In this document: positions 1-6,794 of the stretch, one piece after another | How positions within the stretch are numbered: the first letter of the stretch is position 1 | Layout: the number at the start of each line of letters is the position of its first letter | Assembly (NCBI GenBank): GCA_011620345.1 | Contig: WOZJ01000011.1 | Location: 1 to 39,530 of the forward strand | Source: Nitrospirota bacterium | GTDB lineage: Bacteria > UBA2233 | Direction: 5' to 3' | DNA: 39,530 nt | Notes under the pieces: model-generated | What the model was told of the DNA's origin: nothing | The model's database searches: none | The model's input: the letters and a program-made list of their open reading frames with translations, nothing else | Translations under genes and position numbers: made by a program

Positions 1-963
1 GCTGACCAGCTTGCCTTTTTGGAGGATGACACCTATTTCCCGCCCGTCACGAACTACGATTGCGACGCGCTCGAGATCGAGGTGGATGCCCGAGGCTACA
101 TTCGTCAAAGGGCCACGATGCGCAAGCGTCTCCAACTCTACGACGACTATAAGGAACTATTGCGTTTCAAAGAAGGCAAGATCAAGGCGGGGGCCCCCAA
201 ACGCAAGGACATTATTTTTATGCTGACTCCGCCTCCACTCAAAAATCAAACGCTGCTTTCTTGGACCTACAAAGAAACCCCGGACGTGCGCAAGATGGTG
301 GACTGGTGGATCTACATCCCCGCCTTGCGACAGGTTAGGCGGCTGGCTACGGGAGAGCGATCGGATGGGGTAGCGGGCGGCGACATGACCTATGACGACA
401 TCGTCGGCCGGGAGCCCTTCGATGAGACCCATACCCTCCTCGGTGAGGATACCCTGCCGGCCGACGATATCATTCCCGAACCCGTAGATTGTTACGTCGT
501 CAAGGCCGTCCATACCGACCCTGGCTATTATTTGGGCAAGCGCATCGTTTGGATCGATAAAAAACGCTTCATCCGCTGGAGAGAAGAGCAGTACGACAAG
601 AAAGGCAACCTCTGGAAGATTTTCGAAAGGCGCATGGAGCCGCAAGGCAAAGACGCCGTCCTCGATCATACGAACTGGTACGACTGGAACGTCAAAAAGC
701 ACTTTAGGCAGTGGGTACGCATCTTTAACGTAAAACACGAGGGCAACTTCAAGGAAACGGAGTTCGAGCCCAATTTCTTAAGAAAAGAGTTTACCTGGCG
801 CGTGCCCGACATCGGCGCCTACCCTTACATCAAGTCTCCCAAGGACTTACCAAAGCTTCCCCCTCTTTTGGAAGGCAGGTTTCCCGGCGAGCGTAAATGG
901 GAAATTCCGGAAGAGACCAAGCGCTTGATCGAGAAAGAACGCAAGGAAGGCAAGGGGGCTTAA
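1..963 (+). CDS. LolA-like / DUF1329-type periplasmic protein (5' end outside window)
   Basis: The reading frame is open from base 1, so the true start lies upstream and only the last 320 residues are seen. The visible part has a motif that reads as D-W-W-I-Y-I-P-A-L-R-Q-V-R-R followed by G-G-D-M-T-Y-D-D. This pattern is typical of the outer-membrane lipoprotein-sorting (LolA-like) and DUF1329 families, which are periplasmic half-barrels thought to carry lipids or other hydrophobic molecules. The C-terminus is charged and rich in Lys and Glu. A DUF1302-like barrel starts 39 bases downstream. These two families often occur together, commonly near RND/MMPL exporters, so a trafficking role at the outer membrane is inferred. 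The cargo is unknown. Choosing between the two family names needs a profile search. Confidence 0.75.
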   Translation, partial: ADQLAFLEDDTYFPPVTNYDCDALEIEVDARGYIRQRATMRKRLQLYDDYKELLRFKEGKIKAGAPKRKDIIFMLTPPPLKNQTLLSWTYKETPDVRKMVDWWIYIPALRQVRRLATGERSDGVAGGDMTYDDIVGREPFDETHTLLGEDTLPADDIIPEPVDCYVVKAVHTDPGYYLGKRIVWIDKKRFIRWREEQYDKKGNLWKIFERRMEPQGKDAVLDHTNWYDWNVKKHFRQWVRIFNVKHEGNFKETEFEPNFLRKEFTWRVPDIGAYPYIKSPKDLPKLPPLLEGRFPGERKWEIPEETKRLIEKERKEGKGA

Positions 964-1002: not shown

Positions 1003-2586
1003 ATGTTCGGGGCAGCAGGCAAAGGCTTGATTGCGGGCGTTTTGCTCGCTGGTTGGGCTGGGGGTGCGATGGCGCTCGATGGCGCCGATTTTCGTCGCAA
1101 GATTGAAGAGTTTGACCCCCTTGGGAAAGCGATTACTCAGCCGCTCCAAAGGAGCGTTCCAGGGCTCGAGATGAAGGCCAACCTCGAGAACTTGACGAGC
1201 CTGAGCATCCACAAGGACATGAACCGAAACCGAAACCTTCCTTCTACGAGCTCGAACTTCCAGGGTATCCACTGGCTCATGGATCTCCAGACGACCTACA
1301 GGCTGAATCCTGACCTGAAATTCACGGTTCGAAACATGTTCCTTTACAACGCGGCCTACGACTGGAACGACGGGTTCCGGAACTCGTTCTACGATTCTAT
1401 GGACACGCTTCACTATTACAACACTATGGATCAGATCCTCAGGGAATGGTATGCCGATTACCGAATCGGGGGGCTTCAACTGCGCGTCGGGAAACAGCAA
1501 GTCTCCTGGGGAAGGGTGGATGGCCGCCAGATTCTGGATATGGTGCACGGCTTCGATTACACCTGGTACCCTTTTCCCACGATCAACCCCTTTATTCCCG
1601 TGGAGTACCAAAGAATCCCCGAGTTCATGGTAAACGCCGATTATTTCTTTAATGGCTACGAATTCCAGTTTTTGTGGATACCGAACTTCGAGCCGAGCTT
1701 CGGGCCGACAGTCTCGGGCAGCCCGTGGGAGTTCAACCCGCGCGCTTCCTCGGCCATGGACCGCTTCTCGCGCGTGTCGTTTGCGAAGGCGGACAAGCCC
1801 GCGAGGAGCTTTGAAGACAGCCAAATCGGGGTGAAGCTGGGGGCGATGAAATACGGCTGGGACGTATCGTTGCACTATCTTTGGAGTTGGTCCGACTCGC
1901 CAACGATGTTTCAAAACGTGCTCTTGTTCGATAGGTTTAACCTCCCACCCATGCCAAAGTCTTCTTTGGCCGCCTCATCAAGCTTGAATACGGGCTTTAT
2001 TCGCGATCTTTGGCCGCCAGTGCACGTTCATTTGAACCCCAAGTACACCCGGGTGCACAAGTTCGGCCTGGGCGCTGACCGCTCCTTTGACTGGCTTGGC
2101 CGCCAGTGGGCGCTCAAGTTTGAAGGCCGTTACCTTAAGGGTAAATACTACCAGGTGAGGAACTACACCCCCGAAAACCACGGATGGGACAAGGCCGACT
2201 CGCTTTTGACGGGCGTTCAGCTCGAAACTTACTTTTATAAAGACTGGACAAACATCTTGCGCTGGGACCACGAGCACATCTTCGGCTACGACGGCGATAT
2301 GCTCGATTTGCCCGTCGGCTCGCCCCTCAACCGAAACCAAGATGGCATCTACTGGACCGTGCTCAAGCCTTTCGGGTTTACCAACGACAGGCTTACTATG
2401 AGAAGCCTTTGGATATGGCTTTCGGGTGACGGGGGGTTCCGCTACGAGCCTAACGTTACCTACGAGCTCTCTGAAAAACTCACCGTTCTTTTGGGCGGGC
2501 ATCTCTACTGGGGCAAGCCAGGAGGCGTTTTCGGCCAGTTCGCAAGGCACGATGGCGTTGACTTGGGGGTACAGTACGTGTTTTAA
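1003..2586 (+). CDS. DUF1302-like outer-membrane beta-barrel protein
   Basis: This is a 527-residue protein with a signal peptide (residues 1-24, hydrophobic core, cleavage after A-M-A). The rest is rich in aromatic residues alternating with polar ones, as in an outer-membrane barrel, and it ends in V-Q-Y-V-F with the terminal Phe typical of barrel proteins. The segment R-V-G-K-Q-Q-V-S-W-G-R near residue 165 matches the R-x-G-K-Q-x-V-x-W-G signature of the DUF1302 family. The ATG is preceded by AGGAGG at good spacing. It lies 39 bases after the LolA/DUF1329-like gene and is probably co-transcribed with it. The family is linked to hydrophobic-compound uptake or export in several proteobacteria; the substrate here is unknown. 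It converges on the molybdoenzyme operon. Confidence 0.82.
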   Translation: MFGAAGKGLIAGVLLAGWAGGAMALDGADFRRKIEEFDPLGKAITQPLQRSVPGLEMKANLENLTSLSIHKDMNRNRNLPSTSSNFQGIHWLMDLQTTYRLNPDLKFTVRNMFLYNAAYDWNDGFRNSFYDSMDTLHYYNTMDQILREWYADYRIGGLQLRVGKQQVSWGRVDGRQILDMVHGFDYTWYPFPTINPFIPVEYQRIPEFMVNADYFFNGYEFQFLWIPNFEPSFGPTVSGSPWEFNPRASSAMDRFSRVSFAKADKPARSFEDSQIGVKLGAMKYGWDVSLHYLWSWSDSPTMFQNVLLFDRFNLPPMPKSSLAASSSLNTGFIRDLWPPVHVHLNPKYTRVHKFGLGADRSFDWLGRQWALKFEGRYLKGKYYQVRNYTPENHGWDKADSLLTGVQLETYFYKDWTNILRWDHEHIFGYDGDMLDLPVGSPLNRNQDGIYWTVLKPFGFTNDRLTMRSLWIWLSGDGGFRYEPNVTYELSEKLTVLLGGHLYWGKPGGVFGQFARHDGVDLGVQYVF

Positions 2587-2748: not shown

Positions 2749-2778
2749 GAGGGTAGCCCTAAGCATCGGGCTACCCTC
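2749..2778 (-). terminator. Rho-independent terminator of the molybdoenzyme operon
   Basis: A perfect 11-bp stem (2749-2759 with 2768-2778, core GGGTAGCCC) encloses an 8-base loop. On the - strand the stem is followed by GCTTTTTAA, a short U tract, about 20 bases after the last gene of the operon (stop at 2799). On the + strand no T run follows, so it mainly serves the - strand, although the hairpin could also slow polymerase coming from the DUF1302-like gene. Confidence 0.85.
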
Positions 2779-2798
2779 TAGAAGGCGCGATGGATCCG

Positions 2799-3038
2799 CT
2801 AGTGAGGCAGAAGGCCGAAGATTTCGAGGAATGTTGAAGCAAGCCAACTTAGGTAGTCCATACCACCGCCGAGCGTGGCACTAAGCATCGGGGAGAGAGA
2901 AAAAGAGTTTGTGATCTGCTCTGGAAGGCCGATTAAGGCGTAGACCCACCCGCTAGCAAAATCAAACGAGGCAGGAAGTGTATCCAGCAGGTTTAGCGAC
3001 ACGTTGTTGATCAGGTAAGTGGGGGACAGGTAATCCAT
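2799..3038 (-). CDS. Small hydrophobic protein of the molybdoenzyme operon (79 residues)
   Basis: I do not recognise this family. It is the last gene of the operon and has a strong ribosome site (GGAGGAAT, about 6 bases before the ATG) placed just after the stop of the 80-residue gene. The protein is almost free of basic residues and rich in Leu, Ser and aromatic residues. Its hydrophobic stretches are short (residues 30-38, 62-77) rather than a classic membrane helix. The pentapeptide M-D-Y-L-S occurs at the N-terminus and again at residues 60-64. No signal peptide or cysteines are seen. Its position suggests an accessory or anchoring role for the enzyme, but that is inference. The clear ribosome site and the terminator just after its stop support a real gene. 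Confidence 0.7.
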   Translation of the reverse strand: MDYLSPTYLINNVSLNLLDTLPASFDFASGWVYALIGLPEQITNSFSLSPMLSATLGGGMDYLSWLASTFLEIFGLLPH

Positions 3039-3053
3039 ATTTAGATTCCTCCG

Positions 3054-3296
3054 CTAAAAGTCAATTACAGGGATAGATCCCGCCGAAGCCCCAAGGATCT
3101 GCGAAAGCTGAACCATCAACTGGCCGGAGGGAACGGCTATTGCGTTTACGAGGGGGTGCAGGCTCGAAGGGGTTAAGCCTCTGAGAATGTTAGGTAGGCC
3201 TACCCCCAGAAACGTCCCCAAGAATCCTCCTGCAAGGTTTGGCAACAACCGGCCTGCGTAGCTAGCCGATTCAAGAAGCCACGTTACGTATTGCAT
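3054..3296 (-). CDS. Small hydrophobic protein of the molybdoenzyme operon (80 residues)
   Basis: I do not recognise this family. The chosen start (M-Q-Y-V-T-W) has AAGGAGA five bases upstream, and it lies 19 bases after the stop of the iron-sulfur subunit. A longer version starting at 3350 would overlap that subunit and lacks a ribosome site. The protein is rich in Gly, Leu and Pro, with weakly hydrophobic stretches at about residues 24-37 and 46-65, and very few charges. It has no cysteine, so it binds no cluster. It occupies the place where dms-type operons usually carry the large membrane anchor DmsC. A membrane-attachment, chaperone or substrate-access role is possible, but nothing in the sequence proves it. 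Confidence 0.72.
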   Translation of the reverse strand: MQYVTWLLESASYAGRLLPNLAGGFLGTFLGVGLPNILRGLTPSSLHPLVNAIAVPSGQLMVQLSQILGASAGSIPVIDF

Positions 3297-3315
3297 GTGT
3301 TTCTCCTTATGCTTC

Positions 3316-3882
3316 CTAGATGCCGATGTAGACTCTTGGCTTGAACACAATATTTGGCTTCGTCAGGCTTGGGTCTGCAAACCCGCCCTTAACCTGGCGT
3401 ACGTTGCCGTACTTGGCCAGGATCTCTTCTTTGGGGCCGAAATCTAACGCCCTCGTCAGGCAAGACATGACGCATTGGGGCTTCATCCCTTTTTCCAGCC
3501 GATCGATGCAGCCCGTACACTTCTCCATCATCGGGAGCTCGCTGGGGTTCATCGTGGCGAACTGGGGGGCGTCGTAGGGGCAGGCCGCCTTGCACTGTTT
3601 GCAGGAGATGCATTTGTCTAGGGGCAAGACAAGCCCGTTATCCTCTAGCTTGACAATATTCCCCACGGGGCAGGCCGCAATGCATGCCGGCTCGTCGCAG
3701 TGGTTGCACGAAATAGAGAGGTTGTAAACCTTGATGAGCGGGTAGATGCCCTCTTCGGGCGAACTGACCTTGCGCCACCTAGCCGGACCGAGGGCGACCT
3801 TGTTCCAATCCTTGCACGCTACAGTACAGGCTCTGCACTGTTGGCAGCGTTCCTGGTCGAAAAACCACATGTATTGAGACAT
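3316..3882 (-). CDS. DmsB-like iron-sulfur electron-transfer subunit
   Basis: This 188-residue protein has 16 cysteines in four ferredoxin-type groups (C13/16/19/23, C59/62/67/71, C91/94/97/101, C122/125/137/141), enough for four [4Fe-4S] clusters as in DmsB and its relatives. It begins with Q-Y-M-W-F-F-D-Q-E-R-C, close to the start of DmsB-type subunits. It has no signal peptide and would be exported together with the Tat-tagged catalytic subunit encoded just upstream. Its job is to relay electrons between the molybdenum subunit and a membrane or periplasmic partner. Its ribosome site AAGGAG overlaps the 10-base palindrome CTTTATAAAG (3892-3901). No typical DmsC or NrfD partner follows, so the electron acceptor or donor is unclear. 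Confidence 0.93.
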   Translation of the reverse strand: MSQYMWFFDQERCQQCRACTVACKDWNKVALGPARWRKVSSPEEGIYPLIKVYNLSISCNHCDEPACIAACPVGNIVKLEDNGLVLPLDKCISCKQCKAACPYDAPQFATMNPSELPMMEKCTGCIDRLEKGMKPQCVMSCLTRALDFGPKEEILAKYGNVRQVKGGFADPSLTKPNIVFKPRVYIGI

Positions 3883-3912
3883 GGTCTTCTCCTTTATAAA
3901 GTTTGGAAAGAC

Positions 3913-3943
3913 GGGCTACTCCGCAAAAGGGCGAGAGTAGCCC
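3913..3943 (-). other. Intercistronic hairpin between catalytic and iron-sulfur genes
   Basis: A 9-bp perfect stem (3913-3921 with 3935-3943, GGGCTACTC/GAGTAGCCC) continues after one bulged A with three more pairs (3922-3924 with 3931-3933) and closes on a 6-base loop. It lies just after the stop of the catalytic gene and before the ribosome site of the iron-sulfur gene. Only three U residues follow on the - strand, so it is more likely an mRNA stability or partial-termination element than a full terminator. Its arm GGGCTAC also occurs in the operon terminator. Confidence 0.65.
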
Positions 3944-3953
3944 TGATCATTTG

Positions 3954-6794
3954 CTACTTTCTGGTCTTAGTGGATTGTTGTCCTTGGCTAATATAGGCCT
4001 GGACGTTTTTGTCTGCAGTCTTACCCTCGGCCTTCTCCTGGTTCCAGGTGATCCCATCGACGAACACGCCGCTTTCGGGGTTGGTAAGAGTGCTGTCCGG
4101 TGTTTGAGAAACGCCGTCAATTGCAAACGGGTAGGTAGGAGACCAAACGCCGCCATCGTTGAGCGGGTTGGCAGGGTCGCCTTGGAAGGCTGGGGCATCG
4201 GCAACTTTCCGGACATCCACCAGGCCCGTGTGGGTGACAATGTTGGCCAAGAACTGTAAAGCATGCGGCATCATCGTGCCAAGGAACTCACAATCGCGCG
4301 TGAGCGTGCTTTGGCTGCCAGTTAGGTCAACCCCTTCCCCGCCTGGCTTAGCAAAGCTCGGCCAACGGCCGTTTTCGAGTGCCATGACGCCTTTCTTGAC
4401 CCGGTTTGTCACCCATGCGCGGACCTGAACGGTTCCACGGTCGTTGAACACCTGGACGATGTCGCCGTTTTTAACCCCGCGTGCCGTAGCGTCTTCGGGG
4501 TGTATCCATACGACATCGGGCCCCCACACGTCGTCTAACAGGACATTGTTGCTCCAGGCGCTATGGCTCCGTCGGATGCTCGCCGGAGCGCAGGTCTGCA
4601 GCGGGTACGTTGCCTGTTTTGGGTCTAGCGGGCCTTCCCAGTGATCCACCCATGCGGGGATGGGAGGGATACGTATCATCATATCCCGCATGCCTGGGTA
4701 ATCGTTCGGGAGCCACCACATATCGCGGGCACTGGGCGCGCTGTGCAAACGCTCGAGCGTTTCCGAGTAGACCTCGAACTTTCCCGAGGGCGTGCCGAAA
4801 GGAACCCCGTGGTTGATCTGGGCGGTGTAGGGGCTAGTCAGTGTGGGTAAGGGCTCGTAGTGGTCCTTTTGCACCGCCTTTTCTGGATTTTTACGCATCT
4901 CTTCGACGCTCGGAAGCTTGGGGTTGACGAGCCGCTCCATGGCCACGGCGATCTTGACGACCGAGCTTGTGCTGGGGTTTCCCTGCCACGCCGTACCGAC
5001 ACCACCCTTTTGGGCAACGAGTCCCCAGATTTCCGCGTCGGGTTTCGATTCCCAGGCAGGCTTGACGAGGCCCCCATGGTAGGCGACTCCAGGGGAGCCG
5101 GAGGCCAATAGGCTCTGGAAGTCCTCGAGCTCGACCGAGGTGGCAGCAGGGAGGACGATATCGGAAATCTTGGCCGTCGCCGTCATGGCGTAGTCTATCG
5201 CGCAGCTGAACTCTATCCTTGGCTGGCAGAGCCCCTTGGTGATCTTCCCCGATCCAGGCCAGGTGTTGACGGGGTTGCCCACGGAAACGCTCGCCCGGAT
5301 GATGGGCGCCTTTTCGCCGAAAGGAAGCGGCTTATCCGGGTTGAGGAGCATTTCGCCCAAAAATACGGCAGGAACGATTCGAATGAGAAGCCCCGGCGCC
5401 GCACCCACAAACCCCGCCATCGAAGGGGTCATCATCCCCACCGTCAGGCCCATCATGCCGGCTGCGCTCTTGAGCGTGTTCAACAAGGACATCGACGGGA
5501 GCGACCCGGCGATGCCGGCCCAGTTGCCGAGCTTGCCCACGTTACCCGTGGCGATCGCCATCGTGATGCCCGCCCAGTAGTAGGAATGTCCGATAGCACC
5601 CCGGTTCGGCCCGAGCGACATCATCAACGCGGCCGGTTGTTTGGAGGCGTACTCGATTGCCAACTGATGAATCTTGGTGGCAGGGATGCCCGTGATCCGC
5701 TCTGCCCACTCGGGGGTCTTGGCGATTCCATCGGCCCAGCGGCGTACCTTGGGGTCGTCAGAGTCGGTCTTGCCCAATAAGTAGGCCTGGTACTGGTCCC
5801 AGCCGTTCGTAAACCGCTTGATGTAGTCCCAGTTGATCAAGTTTTCTTGCATTTGTGCGTTCATCATCGCAGCGAATAGGGCAGCGTCAGACTGCGGGTT
5901 AATCGGGATCCATTCGTCTACCAGGTAGCTGAAGGCATAGTTGAAGCGCGGGTCGATCCCGTATACCTTGACTCCTCGCTCCCTTAGACGTTCTCGCATC
6001 TTGGCTAAGCGGTAGGGTGTGTTGCAGAGGTAGGTGTTCGTCGTCTGGTTGCAGCCTACTAAAATCACCATGTTGCTGTGCTCGGCCACCTGACGAAAAT
6101 CCGTCAACCCTTGCCCAGTTGTCCCCATCTCGACGCCTAACCAGTCGGTTATGACACCGCCCATCGAGGTGTCGTTCAAGGGCATGACGACGGGGCCCGC
6201 CAACGCCGGAACGACCCCGATCATGCCGAGCGTACCCTTGAAGCCGTTCACCCCCATGGACATGCCGGCCGTCATCGCGTTTATCAGGACGGAGTGCGGC
6301 CCGTACTGCTTTCCGATGCGCCTTAGCTCAGTGGCCACCTTTTGGGTGGCGTAGTCCCAGCTTACCCTGCGGTACTCCCCAGACCCCCTCGGACCTGTCC
6401 GTTCTAAGGGGTATTTCACGCGGTATGGGTCGTAGACTCGGAATTTGGTCGATTTGCCCCGGACGCAGTTTCTTACTTGCGGACAGCCGTAGGCATCGTC
6501 TGCATCGCCCGTGTCGTCAGTGGCCACCCGTGTGATCCTGCCGTTCTTTACGTAAATCTTGTGAAGGCAGTTCATTCCTGCGCAGTTGAATGAATCTGAC
6601 GCCCAATAGAAGGTCTCGTCGTCGAAGGCCGGAACCTGCGCCCCTTGGGGCACTTGCGCAAACAAGCGTTTAGGGCTTGCAAGCGTTGCCAATGCTCCTC
6701 CGGCTGCTGCGAGCGCCGCGGAGGCCTTCAGGAAGATGCGCCTCGAAACGGAAGGGAGAAAGCCCTCCTTCGAAAGACCGCTTAAGGACCCCAT
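3954..6794 (-). CDS. Tat-exported molybdopterin oxidoreductase, DmsA-like catalytic subunit
   Basis: This 946-residue protein starts with a twin-arginine signal (S-R-R-I-F-L-K at 17-23, then an Ala-rich core), so it folds in the cytoplasm and acts outside the inner membrane. An N-terminal cluster region (C71, C76, C110) is followed by V-R-G-K-S and K-Y-P-L-E-R, as in DmsA-type enzymes. S210 in N-D-T-S aligns by eye with the molybdenum-binding serine of DmsA. The C-terminal part has the dinucleotide-binding domain (V-F-N-D-R-G and A-L-E-N-G-R-W). It is longer than DmsA (about 814) because of an extra tail of roughly 85 residues. Residues 444-484 form an unusually hydrophobic, Met-rich stretch. 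ATG follows GGAGGG by 7 bases. The substrate is unknown. Confidence 0.9.
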   Translation of the reverse strand: MGSLSGLSKEGFLPSVSRRIFLKASAALAAAGGALATLASPKRLFAQVPQGAQVPAFDDETFYWASDSFNCAGMNCLHKIYVKNGRITRVATDDTGDADDAYGCPQVRNCVRGKSTKFRVYDPYRVKYPLERTGPRGSGEYRRVSWDYATQKVATELRRIGKQYGPHSVLINAMTAGMSMGVNGFKGTLGMIGVVPALAGPVVMPLNDTSMGGVITDWLGVEMGTTGQGLTDFRQVAEHSNMVILVGCNQTTNTYLCNTPYRLAKMRERLRERGVKVYGIDPRFNYAFSYLVDEWIPINPQSDAALFAAMMNAQMQENLINWDYIKRFTNGWDQYQAYLLGKTDSDDPKVRRWADGIAKTPEWAERITGIPATKIHQLAIEYASKQPAALMMSLGPNRGAIGHSYYWAGITMAIATGNVGKLGNWAGIAGSLPSMSLLNTLKSAAGMMGLTVGMMTPSMAGFVGAAPGLLIRIVPAVFLGEMLLNPDKPLPFGEKAPIIRASVSVGNPVNTWPGSGKITKGLCQPRIEFSCAIDYAMTATAKISDIVLPAATSVELEDFQSLLASGSPGVAYHGGLVKPAWESKPDAEIWGLVAQKGGVGTAWQGNPSTSSVVKIAVAMERLVNPKLPSVEEMRKNPEKAVQKDHYEPLPTLTSPYTAQINHGVPFGTPSGKFEVYSETLERLHSAPSARDMWWLPNDYPGMRDMMIRIPPIPAWVDHWEGPLDPKQATYPLQTCAPASIRRSHSAWSNNVLLDDVWGPDVVWIHPEDATARGVKNGDIVQVFNDRGTVQVRAWVTNRVKKGVMALENGRWPSFAKPGGEGVDLTGSQSTLTRDCEFLGTMMPHALQFLANIVTHTGLVDVRKVADAPAFQGDPANPLNDGGVWSPTYPFAIDGVSQTPDSTLTNPESGVFVDGITWNQEKAEGKTADKNVQAYISQGQQSTKTRK

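Follow-up and report, generated by a model that had tools for sequence, protein, structure and literature searches.

How is an exported molybdoenzyme kept at the membrane when no anchor subunit is encoded beside it? Complex iron-sulfur molybdoenzymes are often classed by their anchoring, and the question is raised by an operon at positions 2749-6794 of a 39,530-nucleotide stretch (hereafter the window) that is one entire contig (WOZJ01000011.1, C39; 55.7% guanine-cytosine (GC) content) of the draft genome GCA_011620345.1 (G000; 1.796 Mb, 96.8% complete). This genome appears to be a member of UBA2233 (Candidatus Cutipiota), a candidate phylum of two genomes (1.8-1.89 Mb, GC 55.75-56.11%) whose sources were a tailings pond and soil contaminated with oil (PMC11382960). 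A reading made from the letters of the window without database searches (the sequence-only reading) had described a DmsA-like subunit (A) exported by the twin-arginine translocation (Tat) pathway, a four-cluster DmsB-like subunit (B), two proteins of about 80 residues (SP1 and SP2), each with its own ribosome site, and a closing terminator, and had proposed that the small proteins replace the membrane anchor or help to deliver a hydrophobic substrate. Every one of these elements is present, and the architecture is as real and unusual as that reading held. The explanation that we advance, tentatively and at a little under even confidence, is that of a Tat-exported molybdoenzyme of the serine type, without a linked integral anchor, that two small hydrophobic companions would hold at the membrane. 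All elements of the operon lie on the minus strand, from 6794 to 2749, in the order A-B-SP1-SP2-terminator:

3954-6794, minus strand: A, DmsA-like catalytic subunit; 946 residues, Tat signal, serine at the molybdenum-ligand position
6465-6596, minus strand: FS0 motif of A (SD-x2-NC-x4-C ... C), from an alignment that includes DmsA of E. coli and further relatives
3957-4202, minus strand: C-terminal extension of A, about 80 residues; kept in three Cutipiota copies, missing in E. coli DmsA and in other relatives
3316-3882, minus strand: B, DmsB-like subunit; 188 residues, four [4Fe-4S] cysteine groups (16 cysteines), no signal peptide
3303-3308, minus strand: Shine-Dalgarno sequence of SP1 (AAGGAG)
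3054-3296, minus strand: SP1; 80 residues, hydrophobic, without signal, lysine or cysteine; predicted helical hairpin; homologues in three operons
3047-3052, minus strand: Shine-Dalgarno sequence of SP2 (GGAGGA)
2799-3038, minus strand: SP2; 79 residues, hydrophobic, without lysine, arginine or cysteine; homologous in two operons, with a remnant at a third place and, in the C9 operon, a counterpart by position
2749-2778, minus strand: intrinsic terminator at the operon end; 11-bp stem with 8 GC pairs, T run

A four-gene unit in two genomes

The four genes form a conserved unit in which the small frames are coding and DmsC or NrfD is unlinked. Among the compared genomes, the only close relative is the other UBA2233 genome (G001), the remainder sharing just the domain with the window genome, and this sister carries two more A-B-SP1-SP2 operons (on contigs C53 and C9), each ending in a terminator-like hairpin. 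The unit occurs three times in the two genomes, in differing surroundings, with A being 64% (C53) and 54% (C9) identical to the window copy. SP1 is homologous in all three operons (window versus C53, 42% identical, z = 18.6 against shuffles; versus C9, z = 5.5) and SP2 in two (window versus C53, 42% identical, z = 18.6 against shuffles), the SP2 place of the C9 operon being occupied by a 65-residue protein without clear SP2 similarity. Most changes fall at third codon positions, and the ratio of nonsynonymous to synonymous substitution rates (dN/dS) is about 0.36 for SP2 (0.50/1.41), 0.18 for A and 0.10 for B, a comparison limited to these three because dS is saturated for SP1. As judged from these alignments, SP1 and SP2 evolve faster than their enzyme. 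Because the order is kept in three operons and the frames are under selection, we regard the small proteins as real, selected and tied to the enzyme, which they accompany in three of three operons. The window and C53 operons appear to be orthologous, since the C53 operon is flanked by a DUF1302 remnant whose side and strand match those of the intact DUF1302 gene in the window. When the GTDB contig collection was scanned, B gave zero matches, and the A alignment matched the sister genome UBA2233 alone.

Both small proteins are novel, as had been supposed, in that they match nothing known in the libraries searched: no family, PDB fold or credible relative was recovered for them, including in 384 further sampled genomes. 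The window copies had no meaningful match in Pfam (none up to E = 1), NCBIfam, PHROGs or PADLOC; a defence-family match was absent, the sister SP1 had only weak phage-library matches without function, a plasmid search with SP1 returned zero matches, and profile searches of PDB sequences with the small proteins gave no credible match. Matches to SP1 from other lineages (E no better than about 1e-4) were dropped, being mostly within frames of 300-400 residues that are probably transporters; FecCD is a weak match of the sister SP1. Those to SP2 were likewise dropped (E 0.002 or worse, two of the three interrupted by stop codons), and descent of SP1 and SP2 from one family is unsupported (z = 1.2). 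SP1 was modeled as a helical hairpin (mean predicted local distance difference test score, 72), for which a fold search found nothing at E <= 0.001; a faint likeness to c-ring hairpins was not counted as evidence.

No anchor gene was found. DmsC was recovered neither from the window operon nor from the rest of the two genomes, A-B has neither DmsC nor NrfD linked to it in the three operons, and the NrfD-like proteins that were found reside only in two unrelated operons, one for a hydrogenase and one Hmc-like. The sequence-only reading had allowed that such an anchor gene might be linked to the enzyme elsewhere and the small frames not be conserved; the frames are conserved, and no linked anchor was found.

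The enzyme and its relatives

Export of A is indicated by its twin-arginine motif (SRRIFLK) and a match to TIGR01409 at the cut-off, and TatC is encoded in the genome. A matches dimethyl sulfoxide (DMSO) reductase families, all under their curated cut-offs (435.9 bits against 777.7 bits for the DmsABC-type catalytic family TIGR02166), and B has TIGR02951 as its top match, at 159.2 bits and under the cut-off of 214.1 bits, though with 16 of 16 cysteines present. In the HMMER alignment, the serine of the DTSMGG motif in A aligns with the DorA serine at the molybdenum-ligand position, so that A would belong, on this alignment, to the serine-coordinating group (DmsA, DorA and TorA); such a ligand suggests S- or N-oxide chemistry. 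The enzymes of subfamily II (ethylbenzene dehydrogenase, steroid C25 dehydrogenase and NarG) have an aspartate molybdenum ligand and a histidine ligand in FS0 (PMC8840923), and an identity of the steroid C25- or ethylbenzene-dehydrogenase kind was ruled out by the serine and by an FS0 motif without histidine.

A lacks the four-cysteine FS0 motif of DmsA: aspartate replaces the first cysteine in all three Cutipiota copies, and the second spacer exceeds that of E. coli DmsA by one residue. This replacement of the first FS0 ligand is a natural change in a relative of the serine-type DMSO reductases, kept in three copies. The C-terminal extension of A, which spans 65-82 residues across the same copies, occurs only where the small proteins occur, as compared with E. 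coli DmsA and other relatives.

Set against E. coli DmsABC, the system shares a Tat-exported A with serine at the molybdenum position, a B with 16 cluster cysteines and the A-B gene order, but its A is only 31% identical, carries the FS0 aspartate and the C-terminal extension, and is accompanied by two small proteins where DmsC is missing. Pairs of A-B genes without a linked DmsC or NrfD in the stretch read are also present in three genomes of other lineages (G033, G172 and G310); these, however, are 27-35% identical to the Cutipiota enzymes, have no Tat signal in the frames read and have no small-protein genes.

Small hydrophobic genes beside other exported enzymes

Genes of similar character accompany enzymes of other kinds. 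At each of the four PepX_C loci of the two genomes, the gene immediately after the hydrolase encodes a small hydrophobic protein and has a Shine-Dalgarno site:

L082:4555-4737, plus strand: 60-residue protein after a PepX_C hydrolase on G000:C26; hydrophobic, nearly lysine-free
L083:228-410, plus strand: orthologue on G001:C6 of the preceding protein; hydrophobic, nearly lysine-free
L081:4770-4907, minus strand: 45-residue protein after a PepX_C hydrolase on G001:C17; hydrophobic, nearly lysine-free
L071:1012-1182, plus strand: 56-residue protein after a PepX_C hydrolase on G001:C53; hydrophobic, nearly lysine-free

The motif GPYLASLP is common to two of these four small proteins, and the two hydrolases with full frames have signal-like N-termini and match the CocE/NonD family; hydrolases do not require a quinone anchor. 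After the 56-residue gene on G001:C53, itself after its hydrolase, sits a decayed SP2 C-terminus (G001:C53:1343-1450, plus strand, L071) that is 57% identical over 35 residues. A second Tat-molybdoenzyme operon, on G001:C58, is headed by two lysine-free small genes encoding 45 and 43 residues (L107:4608-4893, minus strand); next come, in this order, a gene for an exported rhodanese-like protein, those for the catalytic and iron-sulfur subunits, and one for a cytochrome b. The SP2 remnant aside, these look-alikes show no clear homology to SP1 or SP2, being alike in size, missing signal, hydrophobicity and composition; over twelve small proteins, lysine amounts to 0.1% of residues, cysteine to zero, and net charge runs from 0 to -7.

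A composition-based scan covered about 1.24 Mb from the two genomes, in slightly overlapping stretches that make up about one third of each, and yielded 12 frames in the sister genome and 4 in the window genome, counts that show rarity and association rather than exact rates because the stretches were partly picked around enzymes of interest. Among the latter four, L093 runs antisense to ribosomal-protein genes and another is an internal start of SP1. Run on control DNA totalling 576 kb, the same scan found zero frames; the controls came from E. coli (104 kb), the surroundings of DmsA relatives in other lineages (72 kb) and G376 (400 kb). Three look-alikes of the sister genome have no obvious exported enzyme adjoining:

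L114:5246-5371, minus strand: lone look-alike
L161:13679-13831, minus strand: lone look-alike
L151:4446-4742, plus strand: lone look-alike after a flagellar hook-type gene on C11 (the other two are on C48 and C22)

The rhodanese-like protein (L107:4078-4578, minus strand) and the C26 hydrolase (L082:2834-4558, plus strand) have hydrophobic stretches, LTQPMVDMFIPLAGNMFSF and LGPLMQGVASSAFNALPGTLS, just behind their signal peptides; these resemble the small proteins in style and might be docking segments.

The sequence-only reading had named homologues that occur independently of the enzyme as evidence against its proposal, and the SP2 remnant and the look-alikes beside other exported enzymes supply such evidence in weak form. 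What stands of the proposal is that the small proteins accompany an anchorless enzyme in every one of its operons; what finds no support as worded is a specific replacement of a quinol-oxidising anchor, since look-alikes follow hydrolases and head an operon with a cytochrome b. Because of the remnant and the look-alikes, the explanation moves from a replacement anchor towards a lineage-specific companion of exported enzymes.

Possible roles of SP1 and SP2

If SP1 and SP2 hold the enzyme at the membrane, A and B would fold in the cytoplasm and cross by way of Tat, with B as a hitchhiker of A, while the SP1 hairpin and SP2 would insert in the membrane, or lie on it, without a signal peptide. The small proteins could then bind the enzyme, perhaps by its lineage-specific C-terminal extension, and organise it at the lipid surface, a putative role as docking or assembly subunits. 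Lacking cysteine and conserved histidine, they probably bind neither haem nor clusters; since obvious ligands of this sort are lacking, electrons would be exchanged, by way of B, with a partner whose gene lies elsewhere. Such a role may be likened to that of TorE, which strengthens the anchoring of TorC, or of CydX, which completes cytochrome bd. TorE (56 residues) reinforces the membrane anchoring of its partner TorC in a 4:4 complex, and CydX/AppX and KdpF are small subunits needed for activity or stability (PMC6134056). Like TorE and NapE, SP1 and SP2 are short, hydrophobic and encoded together with a molybdoenzyme system that is exported; TorE, however, binds a c-type cytochrome, whereas the Cutipiota proteins are 79-80 residues long and almost without positive charge. 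A NapC/TorC-type cytochrome c is absent, the window operon having no cytochrome gene, and the NapE family is not among the Pfam matches for SP1 or SP2 (up to E = 1). CydX/AppX and KdpF are similarly hydrophobic and encoded directly behind large subunits (appX lies behind appB in E. coli), but they have about 30 residues and a single helix, belong to integral membrane complexes, and showed no similarity to SP1 or SP2.

Several observations weigh against a companion role at the membrane. Transmembrane segments of the classical kind are weak in SP1 and SP2, with the exception of the C53 SP1 and its strongly hydrophobic stretch of 19 residues (mean hydropathy 2.1); the SP2 model is too poor for use; three of the look-alikes stand alone; and contact of SP1 and SP2 with the enzyme is something we infer rather than observe directly. 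Moreover, both genomes are drafts (93-97% complete), so that an unlinked anchor could be missed in a gap.

Similar companions may serve further exported enzymes of the lineage. A broader proposal, which is conceivable but which we doubt, is that hydrophobic proteins of about 40-80 residues, signal-less, cysteine-free and nearly lysine-free, act singly or in pairs as a lineage-wide modular localisation system that places unrelated exported enzymes at the envelope, with SP1 and SP2 as its best conserved case; such a system is not described elsewhere. If SP1 and SP2 do hold their enzyme, an enzyme line that dropped its anchor and goes together with two tiny proteins would be a new architecture, and its genes are a set concrete enough to test. 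Should the wider class exist, a phylum from hydrocarbon-polluted sites would organise its exported enzymes in its own way, through proteins that annotation pipelines easily miss.

The most direct alternative, that SP1 and SP2 form a true DmsC substitute, a two-protein membrane module that anchors A-B and provides a quinol site, fits their place in the dmsC position, their constant pairing with the enzyme, the absence of DmsC from both genomes and the hydrophobic stretch of the C53 SP1. We nonetheless consider it unlikely, given that conserved histidine or cysteine is lacking, that few segments are long enough to span a membrane, and that similar proteins accompany an operon that has a cytochrome b of its own and hydrolases, enzymes for which a quinol site is not required. 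Molybdoenzymes commonly need private chaperones, and SP1 and SP2 might instead be export or assembly helpers that remain outside the mature complex: they are small, signal-less, co-transcribed and found beside several exported enzymes, and the sole TorD-like protein detected sits elsewhere. Yet proteins so hydrophobic and nearly uncharged are unlike soluble chaperones, and hydrolases with Sec-like signals would have no need of the helper that serves a Tat enzyme, so that this role, too, is probably not theirs. That the small genes are unrelated to the enzyme, as bacteriocin-like peptides, small toxins or selfish genes lodged in operons, would account for the lack of family matches, the fast divergence, the SP2 remnant after a hydrolase and the lone look-alikes, but seems very improbable in view of an order kept in three operons, frames under selection, the missing defence matches, phage-library matches that are weak and functionless, and a net charge that is neutral or negative.

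A further alternative draws on the surroundings of the operon. SP1 and SP2 could present a hydrophobic substrate, for instance by surrounding the enzyme with a lipid-like surface where it meets oil or a membrane, as would suit the oil-contaminated soil and tailings pond of origin (PMC11382960) and the similar proteins of CocE-type esterases. We think this improbable because a serine ligand suggests S- or N-oxide chemistry over hydrocarbon hydroxylation, and because no DUF1302 or DUF1329 relative was found near the C9 operon. The relevance of these families lies in the window itself, where genes for DUF1329 (LolA-like; 19-963, plus strand) and DUF1302 (1003-2586, plus strand) are convergent with the molybdoenzyme operon. 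The pair is related to AmeB/AmeA, monoterpene efflux proteins with an apolar substrate (PMC6394551), and, together with the habitat, hints at apolar compounds, although its strand is opposite to that of the operon. What remains of DUF1302 next to the C53 operon (L022:1775-1952, sister genome) is a C-terminal part, 75-81% identical.

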